This document shows positions 46,781 to 50,218 of a DNA stretch of 64,000 nt, piece after piece. The DNA is from Lactiplantibacillus songbeiensis (GTDB lineage Bacteria > Bacillota > Bacilli > Lactobacillales > Lactobacillaceae). The notes under the pieces are model-generated. The model was not told where the DNA came from. It did not search any database and saw nothing but the letters and a program-made list of their open reading frames with translations. How positions within the stretch are numbered: the stretch's first letter is position 1; every line of letters starts with the position of its first letter. The position numbers were made by a program, and so were the translations under genes. The DNA lies in assembly GCF_005405125.1 (NCBI RefSeq), contig NZ_BJDL01000012.1, forward strand, positions 1 through 64,000. The letters run 5' to 3'.

Positions 46781-48433
46781 CTACTTGGCCATGTACGCAT
46801 ACTTGTAATTCCATTGAGTCCCAGCGGTATTATGAATAATCCCCTTGGCCTTGGGATTTTGCAAGAACGAGTATACCGTTTGATATAGCGGCGTAATACC
46901 TTGGTCTTGCATAATCACCCGTTCCGCTTGCAGCATATCTTGCCAACGTGCCTGAGGATTATTGGCATCTTGATTCTGCGCTTTTTTCACCAACGTATTA
47001 TATTGACTACTATTATATTTCCCATAATTGTACCCACTGCCAGCCGTCATGATTGCCAAATGTGAAATTGGATCGTTAAAGTCGGCGCCCCAACCGCTCA
47101 AGTAAAGGTCAAAGTTACCTTGTTGGGCTCGTGTTGACGCAACTTTAGCTGGAATATTGGCTAAATCAATCGTCAAGCCACTCAGATTCTTTTCCAATTG
47201 TCCTTTAAAGTATTGTGAAATAGGCTTATTAGGTTCGTCATTAGACGTCAATAACCGCACTGTTAATTTTTTAAGACCGACTTCTTTAAGACCTTCACGC
47301 CACAACTTTTTAGCTAAAGCTGGCTGATATGACGTTGAATTCTTCACTGTCGATTCGGCAGCAAAGTCTTTACCATTCTTCGGATCAGTGGCTAATTCTT
47401 GTGGTACAAAGGTTTTAGCCGTTGTTGACGCATCACCAATAACATTTTTAACTAATGATTGGCGATTGATTGATAATGAGATAGCTTGACGAATCTTCTG
47501 ATTATTCAACGCCTTGCGAACGGTCTTGTGACTATCTTTAAAGTTATAGACTAAGAACGCAGTGATGGAATATGGATACGTTGTATAATCTTTATTCGAC
47601 TTCATATTTTTAACCTGTTCACTAGCTAACTGAGTTAAATCGAGCTTGCCTTCTTGGAACAAGTTCAACGTGGTCGTGGTGCTGGCATTCACACTGTAGT
47701 TAATCTTGCTCAGATGGACCGCTTTTTTATCCCAATATTGGTTATTTTTAACAAATGACCAACTGTTATTCGTCCCAGTCCAACCAGTTAATTTGAACGG
47801 CCCGCTATATAACATATATTGCGCTTTAGTCGCATACTTGCTGCCCCACTTCTTAACGGCCGTTTCGCTGATTGGTCCGAATAAAGGGTACGTCATTAAC
47901 TTTTTGAAATACGTTATTGGTTTTGATAACGTCACAATAAACGTATGCTTGCCCTGGGCCTTAACACCCAATGTACTAGGTGCTTGCTTACCAGCAACAA
48001 TCGCATCGGCATTTTTAACACCGGAGAATAAATAGGCATATTGTGACTTGGTTGCGGGCGTCACTGTCCGTTTCCAAGAGTAGACAAAGTCTTGCGCCGT
48101 AATTGCAGAACCATCGCTCCACTTGGCATTGCGAATCGTAAACGTATACGTCTTGCCATCTTTGGATACTGTCGTTTTGCTAGCTAAGCCAGGGGTAACA
48201 CTGCCATTCTTACCTAACCGATACAAACTTTCGAAGACGTTACCAGTACTGCCATAACCGGACATATTGGAAATATCGATAGAATCTAACGTCGTGGGGT
48301 ACGACAAGTTCAAGACTTGGTTGTTCGCATACTTACCGCTACTATGCTTAGCCCCGCTCTGCTGACCACAAGCGGCCAACACCGTTACTAATACTAAACT
48401 AAAAATAACTGCTAACACTGATCTTTTCTTCAA
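46781..48433 (-). CDS. oppA: Oligopeptide ABC transporter substrate-binding lipoprotein
   Basis: This 550-residue extracellular lipoprotein captures peptides for the Opp importer. A signal peptide ends in the lipobox LAAC, giving lipidated Cys22. The type-5 solute-binding fold follows, with AQDFVYSWKRTVTP and the C-terminal NFDLYLSGWGADFNDP. The start is TTG at 48433, with AAGGGG upstream. The permease and ATPase genes are not adjacent, so this is an orphan binding protein. Upstream, a structured leader with a Cys-rich ORF ends in a terminator 56 nt before the start; I see no good separate promoter in that gap. Confidence 0.95.
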   Translation of the reverse strand: MKKRSVLAVIFSLVLVTVLAACGQQSGAKHSSGKYANNQVLNLSYPTTLDSIDISNMSGYGSTGNVFESLYRLGKNGSVTPGLASKTTVSKDGKTYTFTIRNAKWSDGSAITAQDFVYSWKRTVTPATKSQYAYLFSGVKNADAIVAGKQAPSTLGVKAQGKHTFIVTLSKPITYFKKLMTYPLFGPISETAVKKWGSKYATKAQYMLYSGPFKLTGWTGTNNSWSFVKNNQYWDKKAVHLSKINYSVNASTTTTLNLFQEGKLDLTQLASEQVKNMKSNKDYTTYPYSITAFLVYNFKDSHKTVRKALNNQKIRQAISLSINRQSLVKNVIGDASTTAKTFVPQELATDPKNGKDFAAESTVKNSTSYQPALAKKLWREGLKEVGLKKLTVRLLTSNDEPNKPISQYFKGQLEKNLSGLTIDLANIPAKVASTRAQQGNFDLYLSGWGADFNDPISHLAIMTAGSGYNYGKYNSSQYNTLVKKAQNQDANNPQARWQDMLQAERVIMQDQGITPLYQTVYSFLQNPKAKGIIHNTAGTQWNYKYAYMAK

Positions 48434-48488
48434 AACTCTCGCCCCTTTTACCTTTATTTTTTAAGTTAATCCCCAGAAATCTGGAAAC

Positions 48489-48534
48489 AAAAAACGCCTG
48501 CCTAGAATCTCGTCAGATTCCAAGCAGGCGTTTC
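48489..48534 (-). terminator. Terminator/possible attenuator upstream of oppA
   Basis: On the minus strand GAAACGCCTGC and GCAGGCGTTT form the base of a hairpin, with GGAATCT/AGATTCT pairs above, and TTTTTTG follows. It ends the transcript carrying the 34-codon ORF, and oppA begins shortly after it. Confidence 0.88.
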
Positions 48535-48563
48535 CAATAATAACGTTTTTGAGCTCAATACCG

Positions 48564-48668
48564 TTAGATTGGATGCACTAGTGACGCTTGTAATTCAACG
48601 CAAATAGCCATGTTGTTAGATTCACAACATGGACAGCACATCATCATTTGCGTAGAATTATTAGTCAT
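48564..48668 (-). CDS. 34-codon Cys-rich small ORF (leader peptide or small protein)
   Basis: The ORF runs from ATG 48668 to TAA 48564. It has GGAGTGA as a ribosome binding site with a 7 nt spacer, and its own promoter 34 nt upstream of the ATG. The peptide has Cys at 11, 12, 14, 15 and 23 (MMMCCPCCES). The codons for the CCPCC motif lie in a two-tier stem-loop: inner CCATGTTGT/ACAACATGG (48624-48632 with 48608-48616) and outer ACGCAAAT/ATTTGCGT (48646-48653 with 48598-48605). A terminator follows. It could be a cysteine-sensing leader peptide for oppA, a metal- or thiol-binding microprotein, or an incidental ORF in a structured RNA. No family is recognised. Confidence 0.6.
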   Translation of the reverse strand: MTNNSTQMMMCCPCCESNNMAICVELQASLVHPI

Positions 48669-48701
48669 GATTACGTCACTCCGATTTCATAAGATAGGTT
48701 C

Positions 48702-48731
48702 AGTATAGATAGTGGCACTTACTTTTGTCAA
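48702..48731 (-). promoter_or_regulatory. Promoter of the Cys-rich leader/small gene
   Basis: On the minus strand TTGACA (48726-48731) and TATACT (48702-48707) are separated by 18 nt. It starts just beyond the yjeM stop codon. Confidence 0.85.
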
Positions 48732-48739
48732 GCAGTTTT

Positions 48740-50218
48740 TTAAACGTGTTTAGCCCGAACCTGATACCAGATGGCCCCAGCAGCACCAAATAAGATTGGT
48801 CCCGCCAACATCCAAATGGTATTTTGCACTTTACCATCAACCAAGATTGGTTGTAGTAACGTGAAAATGTTCGCACCTAAGACCACCATGAAGACGACCC
48901 AACTAATAATCGTCGTCCACCGTGGCGACTTATAAACTTCAAACGGTTTGATAATATCGTGATTATGCTTGAACTTTGGAAATGCATAGAGCAAGAACAA
49001 ATATGGCAACGTCATCGACACATTTGACATTAAGGTCAGCACATTATAAAACGCCGATGCATCACTCGTAGCAAAGGACGCCATTAAGATAATCACAATG
49101 ACAATCGCACATTGCACAATCATTGCATAACTTGGCATTTGCTGTTTGTTTAACCGAGTGAATTTCTTAGGCCACAATGACTTGGGCGTACCTAAAATCA
49201 ACGTTTTTAGTGGTGAATAGGTTAAGGTAAAGAACGCCCCACTATAAGCTAAAAACATTCCGAGACCGGTATACCGGGCAAACCACAACCCAATCAGATT
49301 GCTCGTTGCTGTACTCAATCCCAGTGCATTCCCAAGAACATAGCCCAAGTTACGCATCATGACATAACTAATATTCCCCATGTTGGTTGACGGATTAGCC
49401 AGGACTGCCTGCCAGTTCGTACTCATGCCCCAGCAAAAGATTCCGAGGGCATAGCCTAATGTAATGATCACGGCCGCAATAATGATTCCGCGGGGGAACG
49501 TCTTTTCTGGATTCTTCGTCTTATCGACCATCCCGCCAAGGACTTCCAAACCACCATAAGCAAAGATGGCAAACACCGCAAAGCTCATCAGACCAACTGG
49601 ATGTTGATAACTAGGGTTGGGCGAATCTAACAGATCAGTTAACGGTTGCGCAAAGTGACCATGGTTCAACGCCAAAATGACTCCAGAAACCACCAGCAAA
49701 ATCGCATTTAAACTCGTGACTGCAATCCCACCTAGATTGGTGATCCGTACAATGCCTTTGACCCCTTTGATTGAGATAAACGTGACTAAAATCATCCAAA
49801 AACAGGATAATAGACCAATTGTTTGCGTGGCATTCAACCCTAAGAAACTAAAATTCTGTGTCTGGTCACTCCCAAAAAAGGTAGTCGTAAATGGAATCCA
49901 AACTTTAGCCGAAGTCGACACCATCCAAATGATATACGATGCAAACCACATGAAGGTCCCAATAAAGGCAAACCGCGCGTTCACACTCACTTCCAACCAC
50001 TTGTACATCCCACTGCTATCCGACTTAATGGCCGCCCCATATTCCGCCAACATTAAGGCAAATGGAATAAAGAACAAAACCGCCGCTGCTAGATAAAACC
50101 AAATGGAGGCATACCCCATTAGGAAAAAGGCCACCGTTCCGTTTGCAAACCCAAACACGGTGGTAAAAATCATCATTACTAAAGCCGTTAAGGTGATTTT
50201 ATTACTTTTCTCAGCCAT
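48740..50218 (-). CDS. yjeM: Amino acid permease, YjeM-type (APC superfamily)
   Basis: This 492-residue protein has about 12 membrane helices. The N-terminus (LMIFTTVFGFANGTVAFFLM) and the stretch FAFIGTFMWFASYIIWMVS match the glutamate/GABA-family transporter YjeM as I recall it. The substrate is not established; an amino acid such as glutamate or another polar one is likely. It starts at an ATG preceded by a weak site. No terminator is seen between it and the small Cys-rich unit, whose promoter begins right after its stop. Confidence 0.85.
   Translation of the reverse strand: MAEKSNKITLTALVMMIFTTVFGFANGTVAFFLMGYASIWFYLAAAVLFFIPFALMLAEYGAAIKSDSSGMYKWLEVSVNARFAFIGTFMWFASYIIWMVSTSAKVWIPFTTTFFGSDQTQNFSFLGLNATQTIGLLSCFWMILVTFISIKGVKGIVRITNLGGIAVTSLNAILLVVSGVILALNHGHFAQPLTDLLDSPNPSYQHPVGLMSFAVFAIFAYGGLEVLGGMVDKTKNPEKTFPRGIIIAAVIITLGYALGIFCWGMSTNWQAVLANPSTNMGNISYVMMRNLGYVLGNALGLSTATSNLIGLWFARYTGLGMFLAYSGAFFTLTYSPLKTLILGTPKSLWPKKFTRLNKQQMPSYAMIVQCAIVIVIILMASFATSDASAFYNVLTLMSNVSMTLPYLFLLYAFPKFKHNHDIIKPFEVYKSPRWTTIISWVVFMVVLGANIFTLLQPILVDGKVQNTIWMLAGPILFGAAGAIWYQVRAKHV

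Follow-up and report, generated by a model that had tools for sequence, protein, structure and literature searches.

Upstream of oppA in Lactiplantibacillus songbeiensis lies a short reading frame rich in cysteine codons, followed by a terminator, and the question raised by this locus is whether the frame matters for the peptide it encodes or for the control of the gene behind it. We analysed the locus within a stretch of 64,000 nucleotides (the window) and compared it with the corresponding regions of other Lactobacillaceae.

The leader unit and its conservation within Lactiplantibacillus

The unit lies on the minus strand between yjeM (assigned by a match to NF011775) and oppA (assigned by a match to SBP_bac_5). 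It consists of a promoter, a Shine-Dalgarno (SD) site, a 34-codon ORF and an intrinsic terminator, all of which are present as a first-pass annotation of this DNA had claimed. Its features are the following:

48702-48731, minus strand: leader promoter, TTGACA (48731-48726), 18 nt, TATACT (48707-48702); 11 of 12 consensus matches
48676-48682, minus strand: SD site of the leader ORF, GGAGTGA; overlaps segment 1
48673-48680, minus strand: segment 1, 5' arm of helix P1, AGTGACGT; pairs with 48580-48587 and covers the ribosome site
48564-48668, minus strand: 34-codon leader ORF, with Cys at codons 11, 12, 14, 15 and 23
48624-48638, minus strand: proposed regulatory codons TGC TGT CCA TGT TGT (codons 11-15); the Cys cluster recurs before oppA orthologues
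48608-48632, minus strand: P3 hairpin, CCATGTTGT (48632-48624) with ACAACATGG (48616-48608); 9 pairs
48586-48600, minus strand: segment 2 as 5' arm of the predicted antiterminator, CGTTGAATTACAAGC; 13 of 15 positions pair with 48511-48525
48580-48587, minus strand: segment 2 as 3' arm of P1, GCGTCACT
48541-48566, minus strand: P4 hairpin, TAACG...CGTTA; starts at the stop codon and forms the apex of the predicted antiterminator
48511-48525, minus strand: segment 3, terminator 5' arm and loop, GCTTGGAATCTGACG; also the 3' arm of the predicted antiterminator
48485-48534, minus strand: intrinsic terminator, stem 48534-48491 plus T-run; the only terminator-like site found in the region
46781-48433, minus strand: oppA, peptide-binding lipoprotein (SBP_bac_5), TTG start at 48433; Pfam PF00496, E 4.6e-79

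The encoded peptide, MTNNSTQMMMCCPCCESNNMAICVELQASLVHPI, has no match in Pfam or NCBIfam beyond one chance-level row (E 0.46), and the leader returned nothing from Rfam beyond two chance miRNA-type rows; a search of window positions 48300-48900 for a T-box riboswitch (RF00230; Stem I plus the GGGUGGNACC motif) gave no match at E<=1. The terminator stem is separated from the oppA start by 57 nt, and a consensus scan of the minus strand sees no promoter-like site between the two, in agreement with the earlier statement that oppA lacks a clear promoter of its own.

The 34-codon ORF is present in 21 of 21 Lactiplantibacillus genomes, by the alignment each time upstream of oppA, and therefore cannot be attributed to chance. 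The promoter sequences TTGACAAAAGTAAG and TATACT are common to the 21 own-genus oppA leaders aligned, and the OppA of the window is 99% identical to that of a relative (G004). The ORF peptide is 61-91% identical to that of the window across 17 other distinct own-genus peptides, non-Cys residues included. Synonymous differences make up 11.8% of comparisons in the ORF core and 51.2% in the oppA genes of these species; the core is thus nearly frozen at synonymous sites, which argues that the RNA, and not the peptide alone, is constrained.

Helices were followed in a 20-row alignment (A4) covering 19 of the 21 genomes; G018 appears twice, and L011 and L019 are left out. Both stems of the two-tier stem-loop that the first-pass annotation had drawn over the Cys codons exist; the 9-bp stem (P3) is invariant in 20/20 rows, but the outer stem (P2) is weakly kept, with 57% and 83% of cells paired in its two halves. 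Segment 3 is invariant across the 20 rows, and 97.9% of cells in the terminator stem are paired. G018 carries a second copy of the leader under a different promoter; the terminator of this copy is some 50 nt ahead of an operon for an amino-acid ABC transporter.

The -35 region (48713-48733, minus strand) is situated within an [AG]CTTGACAAAAGTAAGT-like sequence that forms an imperfect inverted repeat. This repeat is found in the own-genus oppA leaders and roughly in Pediococcus, and is absent from the second G018 copy; it is a possible repressor site.

Cysteine-codon leaders across the Lactobacillaceae

An oppA orthologue (E<=1e-165) occurs in 151 of the 397 genomes of our family sample, and upstream regions were compared for 100 loci from 98 genomes, 15 of the 151 orthologue-bearing genomes being left out. 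By a fixed rule (an SD-preceded ORF with at least three Cys in eight codons, within 600 nt), a Cys leader precedes the orthologous oppA at 83 of the 100 loci, among them the atypical-looking L177, L205, L224 and L234. Counts by genus code are 4/5 (g12), 16/17 (g14), 7/7 (g15), 22/22 (g16), 5/6 (g21), 10/11 (g23), 6/6 (g24), 4/4 (g25), 1/1 (g33) and 8/8 (g38), with none in g31 (0/11), g34 (0/1) or g9 (0/1); a Cys-cluster ORF before orthologous oppA is found in 13 genus codes. In 20 repeats with shuffled upstream regions the rule matches 0-6 times per 100, the opposite strand gives 0/100, and no other amino acid exceeds 29/100 (Ser) under the same rule. More distant OppA homologues (38-49% identity) have a Cys leader in one of 18 cases and same-genus OppA paralogues (47-52% identity) in none of six, and among the 49 long frames of the window two have such a Cys ORF upstream, one being the leader described here. 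Across 246 genomes sampled from the whole order, ten have the oppA orthologue (E<=1e-150), all of them Lactobacillaceae.

Seventeen loci lack a rule-passing leader: 11 of these have a T-box motif and two are cut by contig ends (L200 and L217). The four remaining, untruncated loci include two with weaker Cys ORFs (L180, with two Cys, and L216, with no usual start codon) and two (L226 and L231) in which neither a Cys leader nor a T-box motif was found upstream of oppA.

The leader peptides themselves are much less widely recognizable. A profile search with the leader peptide matched 27 of the 397 family genomes, of which 21 belong to the genus itself and two of the six others were judged real; a laxer threshold gave 51/397, the added matches being weak. 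A pattern scan of public genomes returned 23 stretches (13 from Lactiplantibacillus, four from Pediococcus, one from an uncultured Lactobacillus, and five from unrelated taxa that were presumed to be chance). A peptide of the CC-x-[PA]CC...NM-IC type was recognized by eye before oppA in 5 of 12 Pediococcus genomes, among seven with a match at E<=0.5. In 30 chosen genomes, inspection by eye found a Cys-rich mini-ORF upstream of 12/12 oppA orthologues (at least 54% identity), and the encoded peptides differ widely (for example, MSLKQFCCCQNCLSTKSMTMVNNVC). Outside Lactiplantibacillus and some Pediococcus, the peptides have little in common with that of the window except the Cys residues.

Terminators recur together with the ORFs, being found downstream of 80 of 110 leaders, versus 3-11 of 110 in shuffles, and stems of at least 12 pairs number 80 in the real sequences and 0 in the shuffled ones; the scan was ungapped, and at least two of the 30 leaders in which it detected no terminator (L021 and L022) merely have a bulged stem. 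In Pediococcus (L058-L062 and L110-L113), a second small Cys ORF can be seen by eye between terminator and oppA, for example MSPGCPC..., MESECNC... or MTVESECSCC.... As a general feature such a second mini-ORF was not found, the rule giving only 10 of 100 loci, mostly TTG-start noise.

Within the genus, a cysteine-synthesis operon has a leader of its own. A strong cysE match (E<1e-50) is present in six of the 21 genomes and absent from that of the window, and none of these matches is over the curated cut-off. The identities of the operon genes, scored in L249 only, are a cysteine synthase/cystathionine beta-synthase type, a cystathionine gamma-synthase/lyase type and a serine acetyltransferase (over the NF041874 cut-off). 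Upstream of the operon, in 6/6 cases, there is an SD site, a mini-ORF (for example, MTQLTSNALNNCCCRTARLLRCSAC) and a GC-rich hairpin plus T-run; promoter-like sequence is visible by eye ahead of the SD site, and the duplex of segments 1 and 2 is modest (-5.1 to -11.0 kcal/mol, by a simple cut). Peptides similar to the operon leader (CCCC..RL.RCSAC) occur before oppA in genus g23. The cysteine-synthesis operon fits as a gene set governed by the amino acid sensed; for oppA, the transporter class alone is known.

The L. plantarum names for these genes are cbs, cblB and cysE, and cysE, cblB, cbs and lp_0783 are among 25 genes induced at pH 5, with log2 inductions of 3.18, 3.69, 3.45 and 2.61, respectively (PMC7645587). 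We infer that lp_0783 is this oppA because it is near clpP, which is lp_0786 in L. plantarum according to a second study (PMC3842655), just as oppA is near clpP in the window.

RNA folding and the proposed switch

The leader RNA folds with -76.5 kcal/mol (z -6.7; 0/200 shuffles as good). Its most informative helix, absent from the first-pass annotation, is P1, in which the SD region (segment 1) is paired with the 3' part of the ORF (segment 2), the duplex of the window having -12.9 kcal/mol. One P1 pair occurs as AU, UA, CG, GC and UG, with two-sided changes in 7/20 rows of A4, and another occurs as CG and UA, with two-sided changes in 3/20. Over all helices of A4, 11 cells have a two-sided change, which 0/500 column shuffles reach; counted as pairs there are three, which 79/500 column shuffles reach, so that the count of pairs is not beyond chance.

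Complementarity persists where the sequences differ. In swapped-partner comparisons, which are independent neither of one another nor of base composition, own duplexes of segments 1 and 2 average -15.6 kcal/mol versus -10.7 for swapped partners (44 dissimilar leaders), and own duplexes of segments 2 and 3 average -14.3 versus -10.9 (27 leaders), several representatives of the latter being no better than swaps (e.g., Pd_L058 25/69 and X_L148 64/69). Against shuffles, the first duplex has a mean z of -2.3 and reaches p<=0.05 in 24/44 leaders, and the second does so in 13/27.

In the window, segments 2 and 3 (CGUUGAAUUACAAGC with GCUUGGAAUCUGACG) are paired at 13 of 15 positions, and this pairing is kept in 99.6% of cells. 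Within the genus the antiterminator has no two-sided change and column shuffles are equally good, so its support there consists of sequence identity and folding. The first-pass annotation had favoured another partner, the loop GAATCTA, which repeats a part of the terminator and could pair with its 3' arm. The repeat is real in the window, but the loop is kept in only 3 of 22 own-genus leaders; the loop-terminator pairing is therefore no conserved feature and was rejected as the antiterminator, for which the 3' part of the ORF with the terminator 5' arm is the better candidate.

With a ribosome modelled as stalled on the Cys codons, the window RNA preceding the terminator 3' arm is predicted to form the antiterminator with P4 at its apex (-22.3 kcal/mol at the first Cys of the cluster, -21.8 at the last). 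Averaged over 27 representatives, all with a detected terminator, upstream pairing of the terminator 5' arm in the stalled model is 0.69 versus 0.50 with a shuffled spacer (higher in 27/27), and in the model without a ribosome it is 0.41 versus 0.67 with a shuffled 5' part (lower in 25/27); when the ribosome is placed at the stop codon, the value is 0.24, partly owing to the shorter free RNA. By these computations the antiterminator would be exclusive with the terminator and would be freed by stalling. Since the fold with the completed terminator (-48 kcal/mol) is more stable than the antiterminator fold under stalling (-22 kcal/mol), the switch has to be a kinetic one.

We propose, with a probability of roughly 0.87, that the element is a ribosome-mediated transcription attenuator controlling oppA, and that charged tRNA-Cys is the signal it reads. 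Cysteine attenuation of oppA had been put forward in the first-pass annotation, and at the level of sequence the recurring Cys-cluster ORFs, the terminators, the complementarity of segments 1 and 2 and of 2 and 3, and the cysteine-operon leader all argue for it; translation, stalling, read-through, the response to cysteine and the supply of cysteine by OppA are what we infer from them. When cysteine is plentiful, the ribosome would pass the Cys codons and P1-P3 would form in its wake, making segment 2 and the SD site of the leader itself inaccessible; the terminator would then form and oppA would be off. When cysteine is short, the ribosome would stall at codons 11-15 and leave segment 2 free to pair with the terminator 5' arm, RNA polymerase would read through into oppA, and OppA would import peptides as a cysteine source.

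Other explanations have to be weighed against this attenuator. The main alternative of the first-pass annotation was a free, metal-binding microprotein rich in Cys. In this reading, here widened to redox-binding peptides, the peptide would be made from a transcript of its own and oppA would lie behind it by coincidence. The strong SD site and promoter, and a peptide well conserved within the genus beyond its Cys residues, would suit a microprotein; across genera, however, little except the Cys cluster persists, the near-frozen synonymous sites indicate constraint on the RNA, the position before oppA is kept, and the window peptide has only the chance-level family match given above. Because mostly the Cys alone are common outside Lactiplantibacillus and some Pediococcus, the microprotein does not fit, and we consider it extremely improbable.

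We think equally little of an independent small RNA, about 200 nt long, that acts in trans, perhaps together with the peptide, its terminator simply marking its end. Such an RNA would account for the element's own promoter and strong terminator and for the fact that the entire transcript is highly conserved within the genus, and trans action of leader peptides is possible, the leader peptide peTrpL reportedly acting in this way; outside Lactiplantibacillus, however, the architecture and the gene behind it are kept although the RNA differs in sequence, and oppA itself is without a visible promoter-like site. A Cys leader could also act chiefly on translation or through Rho, a mechanism proposed for mycobacteria, instead of via the intrinsic terminator. 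The sequestered SD site of the leader would agree with this, as would the Cys leaders without obvious terminators that precede cys operons in Actinobacteria (PMC1262725), but the presence of an intrinsic terminator in most leaders (80/110) and of a competing upstream partner for it make this route very improbable here.

Possible exchange with T-boxes and relation to known systems

A T-box motif precedes oppA at 11 loci without a rule-passing Cys leader, ten in g31 and one in G140, all judged by motif only. By the specifier rule (GAA-n-codon-purine), the specifier is AUG (Met) in all 11 motifs, and a Cys specificity of the oppA T-boxes was rejected on that ground. Both a T-box motif and a Cys mini-ORF are present at L234 and L235, the motif of L235 lying 739 nt upstream. 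At L234, a Met-type T-box motif at -400 and the mini-ORF MCCCCCTDRVGSLRKQER at -89 stand before the same oppA, possibly as a double gate. In g31 (L207-L210, L213 and L218), a conserved MTRIRFHKIIAWLVFWRGSSRGS-like mini-ORF is seen by eye between T-box and oppA; one of these mini-ORFs was compared with Pfam and NCBIfam and has no match. In L106-L108 Rfam gives no T-box at gathering score, but below it the T-box is clear in L108 (E 6e-19) and L107 (E 1e-15); L106 was judged by motif only.

The amino-acid ABC operon that has a Cys leader in G018 (L028, C1 1273000-1284000) has a T-box motif upstream in G000, G004 and G009, with the specifier AUG by the same rule; the motif is backed by Rfam below the gathering score in G004 and G009 and stands as motif only in G000. 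The first permease of the G018 operon has an orthologue (E<=1e-60) in 4/21 genomes, including that of the window (locus L253). As the alternative element is Met-type and not Cys-type, the sensed pool could be sulphur amino acids broadly.

Somewhat short of even odds, in our estimate, is the wider idea of a family-wide, RNA-run cysteine regulon in which repeatedly rewritten Cys leaders, exchanged with Met T-boxes, would set oppA import and cysteine synthesis jointly, with a double gate in some lineages; candidates for double gates may be L234, where a Cys mini-ORF comes after the Met T-box, and Pediococcus, where another Cys mini-ORF stands between terminator and oppA. A Cys attenuator acting on both peptide import and cysteine synthesis would account for cysteine sensing in many lactobacilli, would predict cysteine supply as the role of this OppA family, and would mean that the sensor of one gene has been swapped between leader peptide and T-box within one family.

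Leader-peptide transcription attenuators of the E. coli type serve trp, his, leu and ilv. The mycobacterial Cys leader ORFs of Canestrari 2020 are said to be leaderless. Among Firmicutes, there are a Leu attenuator of the S. aureus ilv-leu operon (PMC5794164) and His leaders on hisS/hisZ in bacilli (PMC2965389). In Actinobacteria, Cys-codon runs occur before cys or cbs genes, with no conserved terminator hairpin found (PMC1262725). SAM riboswitches have been lost from almost all Lactobacillus genomes of one comparative study, other cysteine/methionine devices being used (PMC3766115), and Met-specific T-box riboswitches occur in Lactobacillales (PMC3771891). The kind of attenuator is known; among the matches listed in searches of the open-access literature, we found no description of a Cys leader before oppA or cbs in lactobacilli, nor of a Cys form using an intrinsic terminator in Lactobacillaceae.

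The oppA leader shares with leader-peptide attenuators a short ORF with regulatory codons, an intrinsic terminator and a competing antiterminator and, with those of Firmicutes, the replacement of T-boxes by leader peptides on related genes. The actinobacterial and Lactobacillaceae leaders have in common Cys-codon runs upstream of cys or cbs genes; unlike those polycysteine leaders, the Lactobacillaceae ORFs have an SD site and a terminator. Met-type T-box motifs precede the same genes, namely oppA (g31 and G140) and the orthologous ABC operon (G000, G004 and G009), but the T-box is a tRNA-binding RNA without an ORF, its specifier here being AUG, whereas the oppA leader is a Cys ORF. In contrast to known attenuators, the leaders described here would sense Cys and would control the gene for a peptide-binding lipoprotein in one case and a cysteine-synthesis operon in the other, and the 5' arm of the protector helix is the SD region of the leader itself.
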